DNA of 64,000 nucleotides from Acidobacteriota bacterium (lineage in GTDB: Bacteria > Acidobacteriota > Blastocatellia > Pyrinomonadales > Pyrinomonadaceae). The position numbers and the translations under genes were made by a program. Positions 17,374 through 41,711 of this stretch are shown here, one piece after another. Where the stretch lies: positions 1 to 64,000 of the forward strand of contig JAFAVK010000113.1 of assembly GCA_019242475.1 (NCBI GenBank), written 5' to 3'. The notes beneath the pieces are model-generated. The model had not been told where the DNA came from. It made no database searches and saw nothing but the letters and a program-made list of their open reading frames with translations. Numbering within the stretch: position 1 is the first letter of the stretch; the number at the start of each line of letters is the position of its first letter.

Positions 17374-17814
17374 ATGGAGACGAAGCCTTTGGACGTGCTG
17401 GCGATCCTGAAGCTGTACGAGCTGAGGGGCGAGGCGCTGATGCGCGAGGCGCGCGCGTGGTTCTTCACGGAGTTCGCGCCGCGTTCGGGCAAAGAGATCG
17501 TGCGGCTGATGCTGAGCGGGCAGAAGCAGAGCGCCTTCTACCGCATGGTCGCGTCGCACTGGGACGTGGCGGCCGCCTTCGTCAATAACGGCGGCATCGA
17601 CGAGCGCCTCTTCCAAGCAGGCAACACCGAGCACGTCGTCGTCTACGCCAAGCTCCAACCCTTCCTCGCCGAGGTGCGCGAGACCGTCGGCGAGCCTGAC
17701 TACCTCGGCAACCTCGAACGGCTGGTCTTAAAGATTCCAGACATCGACAAGAAGCTTGAGAACCGCCGCCGCCTCCTCGAAAGCTGGTCGCAGGCACAAC
17801 GAAGTGATGAATGA
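17374..17814 (+). CDS. Conserved hypothetical protein with repeat-derived C-terminus
   Basis: 146 residues, GGAGGAGG upstream of the ATG. I do not recognise the family. The protein is amphipathic-helical, opens with P-L-D-V-L-A-I-L-K-L-Y-E-L-R-G and carries A-R-A-W-F-F-T-E-F-A-P-R and H-W-D-V-A-A-A-F-V-N-N-G. No signal peptide, TM helix or metal-binding cluster is visible. It follows the TPR gene by 15 bp. Its final residues R-S-D-E and the TGA stop are encoded by the GTGATGA hairpin repeat that begins at 17801, so the native end was probably slightly different. Confidence 0.75.
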   Translation: METKPLDVLAILKLYELRGEALMREARAWFFTEFAPRSGKEIVRLMLSGQKQSAFYRMVASHWDVAAAFVNNGGIDERLFQAGNTEHVVVYAKLQPFLAEVRETVGEPDYLGNLERLVLKIPDIDKKLENRRRLLESWSQAQRSDE

Positions 17815-17870
17815 TGAGTGATGAATGATGAATATCCCGACACGGCGATATTCATCATTCATCACTTCTC
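17801..17870. repeat. Family A hairpin repeat (GTGATGA-type), copy 1
   Basis: A degenerate tandem of GTGATGA/ATGATGA units; AGTGATGAATGATGAATATC (17817-17836) pairs perfectly over 20 bp with 17847-17866, with a 10-nt loop. It lies between convergent genes and contains the stop codon of the upstream hypothetical gene. Probably works as a bidirectional terminator or mRNA 3'-end stabiliser. Confidence 0.9.
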
Positions 17871-17873
17871 TTC

Positions 17874-18602
17874 TCAGCGTCTTGTCCTCAACTCCGGCGA
17901 GTTGAGGTGCGGGACGGCGTTGAAGGTGAAGAGGAGCGTCTCTTCCTCCCGCAGGCGGAGGACGGTGTAGGAGGTGTTGAGCAGGACGGCCGCGAGGCGC
18001 GGGATGTGTTCGTTCGATGCTTCGAGCGCGCGCGCCGTCCAGACGGCCGTCGGCACGGCCGAGGTGAAGACGGCGACGTTCTCGCGCGGCCGGGCGTCCG
18101 TCCCTTGCAGGCGGCAGGCCGCGACGCGCGCGATGAACTGTTCCCAGGACTCGCCCGCGTACGGGTAGCGCCCTTCCACCCATGCGTCCATGACCTTCGT
18201 GTCCGAGGCGCGCCAGACCCTGTGCACGTCCGCCGCGTGGTCGTCGGCGTGCTTACTCGCCTCGGCCAACATCTCCTCGTGCGCGCGCCGGAACTCCTCG
18301 TCGTCCGCGCACATCAGCGGCGCGATCTCGCGGTAGACGTGGTGGAAGTCGAACTCGTCCCAGCCCGCGTCGATGGAGAGGTCTGGGAAGCCGAGCCCGG
18401 CCTCTTTGTAGGCGGCCGCGACCTCCGCGGCCGTCTGCTGCTGTCGCGAGAGCCCGCCCGCGTAGGCGGCGGCGAACTCGACGCCCTGTGAGACGAGATA
18501 CTCGCCGAGCAGGCGCGCCTGCCGCCTGCCCAGTTCGGAGAGCGAGTCGTACTCTTCGCGCGTGCCCGCCTGCCCGTGTCGTATGAAATAGACGTTGCTC
18601 AA
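17874..18602 (-). CDS. Histidine phosphatase (phosphoglycerate mutase-like)
   Basis: 242 residues from a TTG at 18602 with GAGGGG upstream; this start overlaps the P450 stop as TTGA, which decides the start. The catalytic R-H-G motif is at residues 8-10 (Y-F-I-R-H-G-Q-A), followed by [16 protein letters not shown] and, late in the protein, T-S-A-V-P-T-A in the place of the second catalytic His region, where the canonical H is not obvious. Typical members dephosphorylate small metabolites or proteins. It is translationally coupled to P450 and downstream of an acyl-CoA dehydrogenase, so a lipid-derived phosphate substrate is possible but unproven. Confidence 0.82.
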
Positions 18603-21920: not shown

Positions 21921-22562
21921 ATGAGAGCACAGAAAAAGTCCGCCCCGAACAACGAGCGCCTGGCGGAAATCTACCGCACCGCCGCGCAGATCATCCTCCG
22001 CAAGGGCTACGACGCGACCTCGGTCAACGACATCGCCAACGCCCTGGGGATGACGAAGGCCGGGCTCTACCACTACATCAACGGCAAGAAGGAGCTGCTC
22101 TTCGACATCATGAACTTCGGGCTGTGGGAGCTGGACGAGGAGGTCGCCGCGCCCGCCCGCGCGATCAGTGACCCGGCCGCGCGGCTGCGCTTCCTCGTCG
22201 GCGCCCACGCCCGCCTCGTCACGCGCGGCCAGGGCGCCATCACCATCCTGGTGGACGAGGTGACGGCGCTCACGCCCGCGCAGCAGCGCAAGATCACGCA
22301 GCGCAAGCGGAAGTATTTTGATTTTCTCCGCGGCACGCTCGACGAGCTGAAGGCCGCGGGGAAGATGCAGGACGTGCACACGACGGCCGCCGCCTTCAGC
22401 CTGCTCGGGATGATCAACTGGCTCTCGCGCTGGTTCCAGCAGGGCGGCGCGCTCGACGAGGAGCAGGCGGCCGAGCAGATCGTCAGGATCGCGCTGCACG
22501 GACTGCTCAAGCCGGCAAAGCTCAAAGCAGTAGGCAGTAGGCAGACGGCAGTAGGCAGTTAA
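21921..22562 (+). CDS. TetR-family regulator of fatty-acid degradation (FadR-like)
   Basis: 213 residues. HTH at residues ~13-60 with I-Y-R-T-A-A-Q-I-I-L-R-K-G-Y-D-A-T-S-V, I-A-N-A-L-G-M-T-K-A-G-L-Y-H-Y-I-N-G-K-K-E-L-L, closely the KstR/FadR-like consensus, followed by an all-helical ligand domain with W-L-S-R-W-F. It sits between divergent acyl-CoA dehydrogenase and ETF-led operons, with a perfect palindrome upstream, so acyl-CoA-released repression of both is the simplest model. Its last 12 residues (A-V-G-S-R-Q-T-A-V-G-S) and the stop are encoded by the left arm of a GTAGGCA repeat, an unusual tail unlikely to be native to the family. Confidence 0.9.
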   Translation: MRAQKKSAPNNERLAEIYRTAAQIILRKGYDATSVNDIANALGMTKAGLYHYINGKKELLFDIMNFGLWELDEEVAAPARAISDPAARLRFLVGAHARLVTRGQGAITILVDEVTALTPAQQRKITQRKRKYFDFLRGTLDELKAAGKMQDVHTTAAAFSLLGMINWLSRWFQQGGALDEEQAAEQIVRIALHGLLKPAKLKAVGSRQTAVGS

Positions 22563-22649
22563 GAACGTCGCTGCCGGAGCCTCTACATTAATCTTTCAAC
22601 TTCCGTCACGCGGAGCGAACTGCCTACTGCCGTCTGCCTACTGCCTACT
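22529..22649. repeat. Family B heptamer hairpin (GTAGGCA), 32-bp perfect arms
   Basis: Units GTAGGCA-GTAGGCA-GACGGCA-GTAGGCA make the left arm (22529-22560); the right arm (22618-22649) is its exact complement over 32 bp, with a 57-nt loop. It contains the TetR stop and ends five bases before the EtfB ATG, leaving no room for a normal ribosome-binding site there. The third unit deviates in both arms. A lone right-arm copy lies at 59114-59134. Confidence 0.92.
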
Positions 22650-23452: not shown

Positions 23453-24438
23453 TGCATCTTATGAACGATGTCTTAATCATTCTCTTCGCCGCGAACGGAT
23501 TCGATAAGGGCGCGCAGGGCTTGGCGGGCGCGGGGCGGCGTCTGGCGGACGAGCTGGGCGGGAGTTTGCGCGCGGTGGTGTTGGGCGAAGGCGCGGAGGC
23601 GGTTGCGGGTGAGGCGGCGCGCGTCGCGGACGCCGTGTTAATCGCGGAACAGGCGGAGCTGCGCGAGTACCAGCCGGAGACTTATCTGGCGGCGCTCGCG
23701 AAGCTCTGCGGCGAGTCGAGGCCGCGCGCGGTGCTGCTGGCGAATGACACGTACAGCCAGGAGCTTGCGCCGCGGATTGCACACCGGCTCGGCGGGAGTG
23801 CGGCGGGCGACTGCGTCGAGCTGCGCGTCGAAGGGGACGCCGTGCGCGTCGGCCGGCAGGTCTACGGCGGCAAGGCGCATGCGGTTCTCGAATTGAAGAG
23901 GAGCCCCGCGGTCGTGTGGCTGCGCGCGCGCTCGTTCACGCCCGCGGCCCCGCGCGCAGCGGCGGGCGAGGTGACGCGCGCGACTCTTAACATTCAGGCG
24001 GACACGCGCACGCGCCTCGTCGAGCGCAGGCGCGAGGCGGGCGGCGAGTCGAGGCTCGAAGAGGCGCGCGTCATCGTCTCGGGCGGGCGCGGCATCGGCG
24101 GCCCCGAGCCTTTCGAGACCGAGCTGCGCCCGCTCGCGGAACTGCTCGGCGCGCAGCTCGCGGCCTCGCGCGCAGCGTGTGACGCCGGCTGGGTGCCGCC
24201 CACCTGGCAGGTCGGCCAGACCGGCAAGAAGGTGACGCCGGAACTCTACCTCGCCATCGCCATCACCGGCGCCAGCCAGCACATGGCCGGCATCTCCGAG
24301 GCCAAGACCATCGCCGCCGTCAACACAGACCCCGACGCCCCGATCTTCAAACACTGCCGCTTCGGCATCGTCGAAGACTACCGCAAGGTCGTCCCGCTGC
24401 TGCGGGAGAAGCTAAAGCAAGTGATGAGTGATGAGTGA
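23452..24438 (+). CDS. etfA: Electron transfer flavoprotein alpha subunit
   Basis: 328 residues; ATG at 23452 overlaps the EtfB stop (TAATG), with a second ATG at 23461 as alternative start. The C-terminal FAD domain is typical: V-S-G-G-R-G-I-G-G near residue 210, then the signature [23 protein letters not shown] and N-T-D-P-D-A-P-I-F around 263-305. Forms the ETF heterodimer that collects electrons from beta-oxidation. The last residues V-M-S-D-E and the TGA lie within four perfect GTGATGA repeats at 24421-24448, so the native C-terminus has been replaced or extended. Confidence 0.95.
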
Positions 24439-24490
24439 TGAGTGATGAATATGACCGCGTAGCAACATTCAACATTCATCACTCATCACT
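24421..24490. repeat. Family A hairpin repeat (GTGATGA), copy 2
   Basis: Four perfect tandem GTGATGA units (24421-24448) whose end pairs with ATTCATCACTCATCAC (24475-24490); the loop is about 24 nt. The EtfA stop is in the left arm and the next gene's ATG (24499) follows the right arm with no ribosome-binding site. It separates two genes that should be co-expressed, so it may tune rather than stop transcription. Confidence 0.9.
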
Positions 24491-24498
24491 TCATCATC

Positions 24499-26565
<2,067 letters not shown>

Positions 26566-27763: not shown

Positions 27764-28888
27764 ATGGACTTTGACCTGAGTAAGCCGCAGAAGCTTTTGA
27801 AGGAGTCGGCGCGCGCTCTGCTCGCGCGGGAGTGCGGGGCGGGGCGCGTGCGCGAGTTGATGGAGACGGAGACGGCGCACGACGAGGGGCTTTGGCGGGC
27901 GTTGGCCGAACAGGGTTGGACGGGGCTCCTGGTGCCGGAGGCGCAGGGCGGGCTCGGGTTGGGTCTGGTCGAGATGGCGGCCGTGGCCGAGGAGATGGGG
28001 CGCGCGTGTCTGCCGGGCGCGTTCCTCTCGACGCTGTTCGCGGCCGCGCTCGTCGAGCGCGCGGGCTCGGCCGAGCAGCGCGCGAAGTATCTCGAACCGA
28101 TTGCGGCCGGGGAGTTGAAGGCGACGGTCGCGCTGCTCGAAGAGAGCGCGAGCTGGGACGCGGACGCCTTGAAGTTGGAGGCGTCGCGCGGCGGAGGCGG
28201 GTTCAATTTAAAAGGTCGAAAGCTGTTCGTGCCGGACGCGGGCGTCGCGGACGTTCTTGTCTGCGTGGCGCGCGACGGCGACTCGCTCGTGCTGTTGCCC
28301 GTGGCGCGCGGGGCAGAAGGTGTCACAGTTAAGCCGATGCCTTCGATGGACGCGACGCGGAAGCTCTACGAGGTCAGGTTCGAGGGCGTGAGCGTGGCCG
28401 AGTCGTACGTGCTCGGGGCGGACGGCGACGCGCGAGGGGCTTTGCAGGGCGCGTCGGAGGTGGCGACGGCCGTGCTGTGCGCGGAGATGGTCGGCGGGAT
28501 GCAGTGGGTCTTGGACACGACGGTCGAGTACGCGAAGACGCGGCAGCAGTTCGGCCGCCCCGTCGGCTCGTTCCAGGCCGTGCAGCACATGTGCGCCGAC
28601 ATGCTCTTGATGACGGAGAGCGCGCGCTCGGCCGCGTACTACGCCGCGTGGGCTCTGACCGAGAGAGACCCGTCGGCGCGCGCGGCCGTCTCCGTCGCGA
28701 AGGCTTACTGCTCCGACGCCTACCGCGAGGTCGCCAACCGCGGCGTGCAGGTGCACGGCGGCATCGGGTTCACCTGGGAGCACGACCTGCAACTCTATTA
28801 CAAGCGCAGCAAGTCGTCCGAGACGCTCTTCGGCGACGCGACTTTCCACCGCGAGCGCATCGCGAGGTTAGTGATGAGTGATGAGTGA
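27764..28888 (+). CDS. Acyl-CoA dehydrogenase, diverged partner subunit
   Basis: 374 residues. ACAD fold with G-L-L-V-P-E-A-Q-G-G-L-G-L, weakly conserved middle domain, R-Q-Q-F-G-R-P-V-G-S-F-Q-A-V-Q-H and V-H-G-G-I-G-F-T-W-E-H. The usual flavin T-E-P-x-x-G-S-D loop is replaced by a poorly conserved stretch (L-E-E-S-A-S-W-D), as in FadE partners of heteromeric ACADs. It starts 12 bp after the preceding ACAD and probably forms an alpha2beta2 complex with it. The C-terminal V-M-S-D-E and stop are encoded by three GTGATGA units, the same tail as EtfA. Confidence 0.92.
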   Translation: MDFDLSKPQKLLKESARALLARECGAGRVRELMETETAHDEGLWRALAEQGWTGLLVPEAQGGLGLGLVEMAAVAEEMGRACLPGAFLSTLFAAALVERAGSAEQRAKYLEPIAAGELKATVALLEESASWDADALKLEASRGGGGFNLKGRKLFVPDAGVADVLVCVARDGDSLVLLPVARGAEGVTVKPMPSMDATRKLYEVRFEGVSVAESYVLGADGDARGALQGASEVATAVLCAEMVGGMQWVLDTTVEYAKTRQQFGRPVGSFQAVQHMCADMLLMTESARSAAYYAAWALTERDPSARAAVSVAKAYCSDAYREVANRGVQVHGGIGFTWEHDLQLYYKRSKSSETLFGDATFHRERIARLVMSDE

Positions 28889-28942
28889 TGAATATCGCCG
28901 TGTTGTGGTATTCATCATTCATCATTCATCACTCATCACTTC
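28871..28942. repeat. Family A hairpin repeat (GTGATGA), copy 3
   Basis: Three perfect GTGATGA units (28871-28891), a GC-rich loop, then TTCATCATTCATCA-type units to 28942. The ACAD stop is in the left arm; the next gene has an AAGGAG three bases beyond the right arm. Same architecture as copies at 17801 and 24421 but with a different loop. Confidence 0.9.
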
Positions 28943-28955
28943 TTAAGGAGCAAGA

Positions 28956-30635
<1,680 letters not shown>

Positions 30636-30653
<18 letters not shown>

Positions 30654-30720
30654 CGGGTGGGCCTTTGCTAATCGAACGTTTCATTTTGCAAAGGCCCACC
30701 CGCTACCGCGGGCGGTTCTG
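30636..30720. repeat. Family F cruciform repeat (CCACCCGCggtaGCGGGTGG)
   Basis: Arms 30636-30668 and 30688-30720 match at 32 of 33 positions with a 19-nt loop. Each arm contains its own palindrome, CCACCCGC-GGTA-GCGGGTGG, so cruciform or REP-like structures are possible. The stop of the acyl-CoA synthetase lies inside the left arm; the next gene starts 16 bp after the right arm. Confidence 0.92.
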
Positions 30721-30736
30721 ACCGCTATAGAATGAG

Positions 30737-31480
30737 ATGACCATGACAGACCACGAATCGATCAAGTTCGACATCTGCTGCGCGGCGCGCCTGCTCTACC
30801 GGCAGGGCTTGAGCGTCGCCAACGCCGGCCATTTGAGCGTCGCCGTCGGGCCGGACGAGATGCTCGTCAACCACTTCGGCCCTTCGTTCGCCACGCTGCG
30901 CCCCGAGAACGTCGTGCGCGTCAACTTCGCGGGCAAGGTGCTGGACGGCGGCGCCTACGTCAACGACACGATACGGCTGCACGGCATCATCCACCGCGAG
31001 AACCCGCGCGCGGTCGCCGTCGCGCACACGCACCCGCCGGCCGTCGTCACGCTGAGCGCGCTGCGCGTCGTGCCGGAAGTCTACGACCAGGAGAGCTGTC
31101 TGCTGGCCGACGACGTGGGCGTGGTCGAAGAGGACTACGAGGGCATCGCGTCGGAAGAGGAGCGCGTGATGCCGGTCGCAGACGCCTTGCGCGAGAGGCC
31201 GGTCGTCATCCTGCCCAACCACGGCGCCATCACCACCGGCGACAACATACAGGCCGCCTTCATGCGCATGGTCTTGCTCGAAGGCATGGCGCGGCGCAAC
31301 CTCTCGGTGGCGCAGGCCGCGCGCGACCTCGGGCGCGAGCCGGTCGCCATCGCCCCCGCGGCGGCGCGGCGCGCGAAGGCCGAGATCGGGCGCATGCCCG
31401 TGCTGCCGCTCCTCTGGCAAGATTTCCTCAAGCAGCTCCGCCAGTCAGACCCCGACCTGTTCGAAGGGCGTGAGAACTAG
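30737..31480 (+). CDS. Class II aldolase/adducin-family protein
   Basis: 247 residues. The family fold is recognisable from A-A-R-L-L-Y-R-Q-G-L-S-V-A-N-A-G-H-L-S, the metal-binding H-T-H-P-P around residue 95 and a later P-N-H-G-A-I-T-T-G with the third His. Members are zinc aldolases or epimerases acting on phosphorylated sugars or hydroxy-acids; some lack activity. Its place between acyl-CoA synthetase and FadB suggests a lipid-related retro-aldol or hydroxy-acyl step rather than sugar metabolism; no substrate can be read. The FadB-like gene starts at the base after its stop, so they are translationally coupled. Confidence 0.85.
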   Translation: MTMTDHESIKFDICCAARLLYRQGLSVANAGHLSVAVGPDEMLVNHFGPSFATLRPENVVRVNFAGKVLDGGAYVNDTIRLHGIIHRENPRAVAVAHTHPPAVVTLSALRVVPEVYDQESCLLADDVGVVEEDYEGIASEEERVMPVADALRERPVVILPNHGAITTGDNIQAAFMRMVLLEGMARRNLSVAQAARDLGREPVAIAPAAARRAKAEIGRMPVLPLLWQDFLKQLRQSDPDLFEGREN

Positions 31481-38963: not shown

Positions 38964-40067
38964 ATGAACACGAACGCGGCAATCTTGTGGGAGCAGGGCG
39001 CGCCCCTGTCGGTCGAGGCGGCGGAGTTGGGCGGGCCGCGCGCGGGCGAGGTGCTGGTCGAGTTGAAGGCCGCGGGCGTGTGCCACAGCGACCTGCACCC
39101 GGCCCGCGGCGAGTGGCCCGTGCGGACGCCGCTCGTGCTCGGGCACGAGGGCGCGGGGGTGGTGCGCGAGGTCGGCGAGGGCGTGAAGAACGTCAGGCCG
39201 GGCGACCACGTCGTCTTCTGCTGGGCGCCGCCGTGCGGCGTGTGCCCGCCGTGCAGGGAGGGGCGCCCCGTGCTGTGTGACCGCTTGGAGCGGACGACGT
39301 ACCGGAACCGCCTGCCCGCGGGCGACACGCTCTTGAGCGCGCGCGGGCAAAGGCTGGCGCACTACAACGGCACGGCCTGCTTCGCGGACTTCGCGGTGGT
39401 GGCCGAGGAGGGCGTGATTGCCGTCCCCGAAGACGTGCCGTTCGAGGCTCTGGCGACGCTCGGGTGCGCGGTCGTGACGGGCGTCGGCGCTGTTCTGAAC
39501 GCGGCGCGACCGGAGGCGGGCGCGAAGGTCGCGGTCATCGGCGTGGGCGGCGTCGGCCTCAACGTCGTGCAGGGCGCGAGGCTCGCGGGCTGCGCGGCGA
39601 TAGTCGCGCTCGACACGCGGAATGAGCCGCTCCGCCTCGCGCGCGAGTTCGGCGCGACCGACACGGTCGAAGCGTCGGGGGAGAAAGTGACCGAACGGGT
39701 GAGGGGGCTGACCGGCGGGCGCGGCGCCGACTACGTCTTCGACACGGTGGGCTCGCCCGCCACGCTCGCGCAGGCGCTCGGGCTCGCGCGCAAGGGCGGG
39801 ACGGTCGTCGTCACGGGGCTCGCACGTTTGGACGCGCTCGCCTCCTTCCCGCTCTTCCCCTTCGTCATGCAGGAGAAGCGCCTCGTCGGCTCGGTCTACG
39901 GCTCGGGCCGGCCGTCCAGAGACGTGCCGCGCCTCGTCGAACTCTACCGCGAAGGGAAGCTCAAGCTCGCCGAACTCGTCACGCGCACTTATCAGCTTGA
40001 AGAGGTCAACGACGCGCTCGACGCGCTCGCCGGGGGCGAAGGCGCGCGGGGGATTATCCGTTGGTGA
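38964..40067 (+). CDS. Zinc-dependent alcohol dehydrogenase, class III-like
   Basis: 367 residues. G-V-C-H-S-D-L-H with zinc Cys, G-H-E-G-A-G-V-V, structural-zinc cysteines in C-G-V-C-P-P-C-R-E-G-R-P-V-L-C, and Rossmann G-V-G-G-V-G-L-N-V. Resembles NAD(H)- or cofactor-dependent Zn-ADHs of the FrmA/AdhD kind. Last gene of the lipid run, 13 bp after the kinase; it could oxidise an alcohol or hydroxy-fatty acid, e.g. a P450 product. Ends before a hairpin repeat shared with the convergent gene. Confidence 0.92.
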   Translation: MNTNAAILWEQGAPLSVEAAELGGPRAGEVLVELKAAGVCHSDLHPARGEWPVRTPLVLGHEGAGVVREVGEGVKNVRPGDHVVFCWAPPCGVCPPCREGRPVLCDRLERTTYRNRLPAGDTLLSARGQRLAHYNGTACFADFAVVAEEGVIAVPEDVPFEALATLGCAVVTGVGAVLNAARPEAGAKVAVIGVGGVGLNVVQGARLAGCAAIVALDTRNEPLRLAREFGATDTVEASGEKVTERVRGLTGGRGADYVFDTVGSPATLAQALGLARKGGTVVVTGLARLDALASFPLFPFVMQEKRLVGSVYGSGRPSRDVPRLVELYREGKLKLAELVTRTYQLEEVNDALDALAGGEGARGIIRW

Positions 40068-40074
40068 TAAGGAA

Positions 40075-40180
40075 TGACGGGGAGAGTGGGAGACGGGGGA
40101 CGGGGTGAGAAGGCAAATGCTTTCACCCCGTCTCCCACTCTCCCCGTCACCCCGTCTCCCACTCTCCCACTCTCCCCGTC
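40075..40180. repeat. Family C octamer repeat between convergent genes
   Basis: TGACGGGGAGAGTGGGAGAC.. (40075-40098) pairs perfectly over 24 bp with 40126-40149, followed by more CGTCTCCCACTC units to 40180. It fills the gap between two convergent stops and overlaps the stop of the minus-strand gene by two bases. Acts as a bidirectional terminator by position. Related copy inside the EMO gene. Confidence 0.9.
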
Positions 40181-41587: not shown

Positions 41588-41613
41588 GTACGTTGAGTGT
41601 AGCAGAGAATAGA

Positions 41614-41702
41614 TTAACCACAGAGGCGCAGAGGCTTAAGAAGTTGAGATTTCAAATTTGAAATTTGAAATTGTTCTTAAGCCTCTGTGCCTCTGTGGCT
41701 AA
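41614..41702. repeat. Family D hairpin with family E palindrome nested in its loop
   Basis: Arms 41614-41642 (TTAACCACAGAGGCGCAGAG..) and 41674-41702 match at 27 of 29 positions. The loop holds ATTTCAAATTTGAAAT (41649-41664, perfect palindrome) plus another TTGAAATT, a family E element. It lies between the thioesterase start and the receptor stop on the minus strand. The receptor transcript may end here; the thioesterase promoter must be squeezed into the rest. Confidence 0.88.
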
Positions 41703-41711
41703 TGCCCTGAC

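Follow-up and report, generated by a model that had tools for sequence, protein, structure and literature searches.

A REPIN-like hairpin family of Acidobacteriota, probably mobile, found mostly behind genes

REPINs are reportedly inverted REP doublets that are mobilised by RAYTs. GTAG-tagged REPs lie behind genes, are often found as head-to-head dimers and often give the flanking open reading frame its TAG stop, as described in part of a published source (PMC3733652). The same part of that source describes CGTC-1 REPs as having an 8-bp stem and a 4-nt loop, occurring mainly as head-to-head dimers and being without a transposase; it lists CGTC repeats in five phyla, Acidobacteria not among them, and reports that REP families without a transposase of their own are known (PMC3733652). 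How REPs can exist with no transposase has long been puzzling, and the example in print is that of the CGTC REPs. Here we consider an element in the draft genome of an Acidobacteriota bacterium (G000), located within a 64,000-nt stretch of contig JAFAVK010000113.1 (the window, meaning the whole of the DNA analysed). It belongs to a hairpin family of Acidobacteriota that is probably mobile.

The initial annotation described a cruciform repeat of two internally palindromic arms at 30636-30720. The inverted repeat is confirmed as real, but its boundaries lie further out: the unit is an inverted doublet of 91 nt at 30633-30723. The inner palindromes also held up, whereas the two-hairpin form is disfavoured: the minimum-energy fold is one long, near-perfect hairpin, which covariation favours too. 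The left arm (GGCCAGAACCACCCGCGGTAGCGGGTGGGCCTTTGC; 30633-30668, forward strand) and the right arm, its inverted copy (30688-30723, reverse strand), match at 34 of 36 positions, and the 32/33 match proposed for arms of 33 nt was found as stated, with one mismatch. Between them lies a variable loop (30669-30687). Each arm is palindromic around GGTA, as had been noted; the left inner palindrome, CCACCCGC-GGTA-GCGGGTGG, is exact (30641-30660, forward) and the right one has a single mismatch (30696-30715, reverse). An inverted-repeat search gave 44-nt arms at 30633-30676 and 30680-30723 that are 89% complementary. The element is bordered by the pentamers AGACA (30628-30632), which corresponds to the family motif A-W-A-N-N preceding GGTCAG, and GCTAT (30724-30728), the same motif inverted. 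Both arms contain the core CCRCCCGC-GGTA-GCGGGTGG, and when the window was shuffled 100 times with its dinucleotides preserved, two such cores never occurred. The predicted RNA fold has an energy of -76.5 kcal/mol (z = -11.8) and the DNA fold a z of -13.3, neither being equalled in 200 shuffles. Searches with the core and with a covariance model revealed no second copy within the 64,000 nt, and no Rfam family matched the window at its gathering score. The window also holds inverted repeats of near-simple sequence, at 631-775, 17801-17884, 22529-22649, 24419-24501, 28862-28944, 40066-40158 and 41613-41703, which represent several unrelated families (AGTAGGCAG, TGATGAATGATGAA, CCACAGAGGCGCAGAGGC and others).

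The element enters the end of an acyl-CoA synthetase (AMP-binding) gene (28956-30653, forward strand; PF00501, PF13193), as first annotated from its N-H-P-R-stop ending. The frame terminates in E-T-G-Q-N-H-P-R-stop, the last six codons (GQNHPR) and the TAG stop at 30651-30653 of the left arm being given by the element. Downstream, a class II aldolase family gene (30737-31480, forward strand; PF00596) starts 13 nt past the element. The C-terminus is not kept in relatives: the G003 enzyme ends in ESGQNHPL-stop, reading through that genome's own copy of the element, while the G002 enzyme, without an element, ends in EEQAQG-stop. In G002 and G003 the acyl-CoA synthetase is followed by a short-chain dehydrogenase-like gene (L179, L180; frame read by eye), which is absent from the window, where the aldolase is next; the point of loss coincides with the right edge of the element (window 30724-30740). 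Deletion of this gene by recombination between two elements was considered and rejected, as the model detects a single element in each of L063 and L149 but none in either L175 or L180, and no second element was seen.

Reading the site as a REP-like repeat depended on further copies in the genome, and these were found. Allowing up to 2 mismatches, the core has 27 matches in the 6.14-Mb draft genome of G000, compared with 0 for a reversed control pattern. At least 11 full copies are present in G000, and a covariance model built on 18 diverse copies recognises about 16 loci (32 strand matches) there and at least 36 strand matches in the congener G003 (both genomes are drafts, 91% and 94% complete respectively). 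Of the 119 genomes in the bacterial family, 88 have some match to the model, and these belong to 23 of the 29 genera. With no more than 36 candidates scored in each genome, the counts are lower bounds; in G005, 91 were found. Related arms are also present in other acidobacterial records; some non-acidobacterial records contain a single exact core with no partner arm in the flanks shown, and these lone cores are taken as chance. For comparison we used 43 doublets, 11 from G000 and 32 from G003, having dropped single arms, mini-palindromes and the G003 loci L069 and L081, which are identical to L001 and L015 of G000. Copies are paired in inverted orientation at near-fixed spacing, 37 of the 43 doublets being exactly 91 nt long, like the one in the window, although 36-nt palindromes corresponding to the element minus its inside also occur. 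The BIME-like organisation initially proposed is thus borne out by dispersed inverted pairs with near-fixed spacing that are intergenic and mostly at gene 3' ends. Clustered or tandem copies occur in another genus (G015:C12:474281-474500 and G015:C21:163078-168606), and in G001 and G002 there is a variant with CGAGCGGTAGCGAGCG-type arms (L278, L284-L288), in which the hairpin plan is unchanged and the pairs are altered. The 700 + 700 nt flanks of L001 (G000:C5) and L069 (JAFAZX010000063.1) are 100% identical, as are those of L015 (G000:C79) and L081 (JAFAZX010000005.1), while other matching gene ends between the two genomes are mostly 87-95% identical; the identical flanks reflect shared contigs, mis-binning or recent transfer.

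When the long hairpin is imposed on an alignment of 37 copies (the 6 doublets of other lengths being left out), 92.4% of cells are paired, compared with 34-46% for slid versions. Fourteen of its pairs have changed on both sides, a number reached in 0 of 500 shuffles (6.3 +/- 1.7); the shuffles ignore the relatedness of the copies, for which the slid controls account. Two small hairpins per element give 97% pairing but 2 double-changed pairs (366 of 500 shuffles as high), and pair 66/81 fails in 11 of 37 copies. Although the covariation score and the count of double-changed cells exceed all 500 shuffles for this form as well, the alignment suggests that it is disfavoured relative to one long hairpin. 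Between copies we take to be orthologous (L003 and L063, in matching orientation) there is a compensatory change from G-C to C-G at pair 29/63. Within a genome the arms are 92-95% identical among copies and the loop columns 54-58% (9 copies in G000, 28 in G003).

Outside GGTCAG/CTGACC, the flanking positions lean towards A-W-A from -5 to -3: A is found at -5 on 67 of 86 sides (25 of 29 gene-end sides and 42 of 57 other sides), A or T at -4 on 70 and A at -3 on 49, against a background of 16% A across loci. Among 42 incoming gene ends, with genes called from codon-position G+C only, the stop falls at -3 to +1 in 18 and at +21, where the arm has the TAG that also ends the window gene, in 7 (one of these genes, L009, has merely 64 codons). 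Past +1, and apart from the +21 stops, a single gene reads into the element (stop at +56). At L085, L099 and L121 some sides rely on frames of atypical composition, and a raw scan gives long incoming frames there; the 'divergent' arrangement (7 of 43) is probably overcounted. The 18 edge stops comprise 11 TAA, 6 TAG and 1 TGA (L070), and 25 element-free partners of 13 of these loci have 13 TGA, 6 TAG and 6 TAA. This comparison covered 15 of the 18 edge loci with partners (L085, L121 and L130 left out) and the stop of L124, and 31 of 32 partners were matched, one of which (L179) carries the element. At L086, L089 and L104 the stop seems to predate the insertion, because 8 of 9 orthologues likewise end in TAA or TAG; the element is thus not the source of the stop codon in every case. 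At L068, L123 and the window gene, on the other hand, GQNHPR-stop stands where the relatives have their own final codons and stop. There are 7 cases of GQNHPR or GQNHPL tails derived from the element, so annotators should be aware that the recurrence of such protein tails here is due to a repeat. Provision of a TAG stop by a repeat is not new, as the consulted part of the source on GTAG REPs already describes it (PMC3733652).

To follow the history of individual sites, all four genomes of the genus were searched with 20 anchors, two of which mark one and the same site in different genomes, and the 38 stretches that matched were read. At six sites the element is found only in G003 (L066, L086, L089, L104, L123, L130) and is absent from the congener stretches, and at two it is found only in G000 (L017, L021), the matching stretches of the three congeners being without it. 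A model search of the 38 stretches detected the element in a single one, L179, which in G003 corresponds to the window site; an extra match in L207 (E = 0.84) was taken as chance. The window copy is common to G003 (L063; flanking gene 90.5% identical) and absent from G002. By parsimony, the single-genome elements point to gains that postdate the divergence of G000 from G003, on the assumption that these are the closest pair, as judged from search identities rather than a tree. The orthologues are best search matches and unproven as such: the partner of L098 is probably a paralogue, the match of L183 is short, and the anchors L121 and L130 are unclear gene ends. No exact empty-site boundaries were seen in the congener stretches, and target duplication or clean excision is unreadable because the flanks and intergenic sequence are too diverged. 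In 13 of 37 gene flanks an exact inverted repeat of at least 12 nt lies behind the gene, one being the studied element; nine of the remaining 12 have arms of at least 16 nt, and the corresponding figure for upstream control stretches within the same flanks is 0 of 36. Judged against these controls, several unrelated hairpin families seem to share gene ends as landing sites. Dyads of AGTAGGCAG in other genomes of the genus sit at sites matching those of the studied element (L185, L215).

We consider it likely that the element is a small non-autonomous copy of REPIN type, with two inverted arms forming one long hairpin, which has spread over time and been kept behind genes. An enzyme acting in trans would recognise the arms, since these are conserved and the loops are not, and the AT-rich edge would belong either to the unit or to its target. 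Insertions elsewhere in genes would be purged by selection, while gene-end insertions may be tolerated, since a stop codon is available there, be it an edge TAR or the arm's TAG at +21. Once transcribed, the hairpin would fold at the 3' end of the mRNA. Arms of conserved sequence with varied loops also fit hairpins that are kept in place by selection.

As to the mobiliser, a possible, if doubtful, explanation is a true REPIN family moved by a RAYT (Y1 transposase) that has been lost from these drafts or left unassembled. The architecture equals that of REP doublets, G000 and G003 are 91% and 94% complete, and transposase genes are often lost into draft-assembly gaps. The initial annotation had suggested looking for a Y1/REP-associated transposase, but PF01797 has 0 matches in G000, where at 91% completeness absence is not absolute, while 6 of 14 control genomes were positive. 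G001 and G003 likewise have 0 matches, which counts against a RAYT given the seemingly separate gains in G000 and G003, and so does the lack of matches in the element-rich G033 (71% complete) and G009 (89% complete); five element-carrying genomes, three of them within the genus, are without a detected Y1. G002 has 2 Y1 matches, one of which (L139) resembles an IS200-type transposase by eye. Across the family, Y1 genes are present in 106 of 119 genomes, in favour of a RAYT, and are positively associated with the element (83 of 88 carriers versus 23 of 31 non-carriers, Fisher p = 0.005; Spearman 0.30, p = 0.001), in statistics uncorrected for phylogeny or completeness; a Y1 mobiliser outside this genus would fit this association. 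An arm with up to 3 mismatches lies within ~1.5 kb of Y1, however, at only 2 of 40 loci (L147, L239) and on one side only, the weaker resemblances at L141 and L142 being excluded and the 40 loci, two of which overlap, being part of the Y1 matches listed. In G005, G032 and G015, 4 of 36 Y1 genes lie within 5 kb of a listed element (82 listed elements of 231 strand matches), compared with 2.1-2.9 expected, so the closeness of Y1 genes to elements in the family does not clearly exceed what chance would give. A RAYT flanked by the element was rejected on these counts. Other inverted repeats of at least 22 nt surround the Y1 gene at 15 of 40 loci, again against the family being moved by it. At 10 of 40 (L140, L143, L144, L217, L219, L222, L224, L229, L243, L244) it is enclosed by other exact inverted repeats, 25-45 nt long; such genes perhaps resemble acidobacterial TIRYT genes (PMC3733652). 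That REP families without a transposase are known, as the same part reports, leaves room for a RAYT lost from these genomes (PMC3733652). On balance, a resident Y1 (HUH) transposase is unlikely to be the mobiliser in this genus. We would propose only tentatively that a non-Y1/RAYT enzyme spreads the elements in this genus and aims at gene ends, where insertion would take over the stop (often TGA in relatives, nearly always TAA or TAG at the element) and so be near-harmless, with several unrelated hairpin families competing for those sites.

A hairpin selected for its RNA role, as a two-way transcription end or a stabiliser of mRNA 3' ends, and spread by duplication or recombination without a transposase, seems unlikely. 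Its location directly behind stop codons, very stable RNA fold and covariation, including the compensatory change at pair 29/63, would suit such a role, but template switching inside palindromes could also yield compensatory changes; moreover, the set of copies is lineage-specific and the stem has no T-run. An intrinsic terminator was rejected for the latter reason, despite the G+C-rich hairpin; of 2 terminator-like sites in 30400-30900 (0.7 expected), the one overlapping the element is a 6-pair stem on the other strand. It is rather improbable that the element is a MITE, that is, a short derivative of a DDE-transposase insertion sequence with the arms as terminal repeats. Inverted ends, near-constant length and intergenic location are as expected of one, yet none of the loci read showed a longer form in which the arms enclose a gene, direct duplication at the edges is not visible by eye, and the loops of recent copies should presumably match as well as the arms, which they do not. 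Facing arms 150-5000 nt apart occur at 4 of 76 loci. At L083 exact arms stand 0.9 kb apart within another GGATGAGG-type repeat, with no transposase-like frame, and an autonomous element bounded by distant arms was rejected; the facing arms of L107 (207 nt) are an extra arm beside a doublet, and those of L078 and L117 rely on arms with 4-6 mismatches. In G000, none of the single arms is accompanied by a distant partner within ~1.5 kb. A chance palindrome or an assembly artefact, for which high G+C content alone could speak, is refuted for practical purposes by the shuffles (0/100) and by the copies in many other assemblies. The mover of these repeats is testable by comparison of close strains, because the family, present in 23 of 29 genera, includes five Y1-less carriers and gains seemingly made after the split of two of them.

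Compared with the described systems, the element has the features of REPs and BIMEs in general, being a short palindrome with many copies, mostly extragenic and in alternating orientation. It also shares the architecture reported for REPINs, in which two inverted arms with a variable spacer form a single hairpin in dispersed extragenic copies, but its arms are 29-36 nt long and end in GTCAG rather than GTAG, no Y1/RAYT was detected in G000 or the copy-rich congener G003, and no element flanks Y1 on both sides at the 40 Y1 loci examined. Like the GTAG-tagged REPs, in so far as the consulted part of PMC3733652 describes them, it lies behind open reading frames, 7 of 42 incoming genes ending at the TAG of the arm; its GTAG, however, sits midway along each arm, where the inner palindrome has its loop, and is base-paired to the opposite arm instead of forming an unpaired end tag. 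Set by eye against the text descriptions of CGTC-tagged REPs in the same part (PMC3733652), it shares the 8-bp stem and 4-nt loop, and the arm starts with NGTC, but the tag does not adjoin the stem, which opens with two C-G pairs rather than the A-T start of the 8-9 bp CGTC stem, and no CCA-like tail was seen. Acidobacterial TIRYT genes have TIRs that are likewise dispersed inverted repeats of Acidobacteria (PMC3733652), but the arms of the element were not found as pairs flanking Y1 genes. No description of the family was found in openly licensed PMC literature on acidobacterial palindromes, MITEs, REPs or stop-codon stalling, and as far as searched this is an apparently undescribed, REPIN-like family of Acidobacteriota. 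Unusual mainly in missing the expected transposase, the element is ordinary in kind and works like a REPIN.
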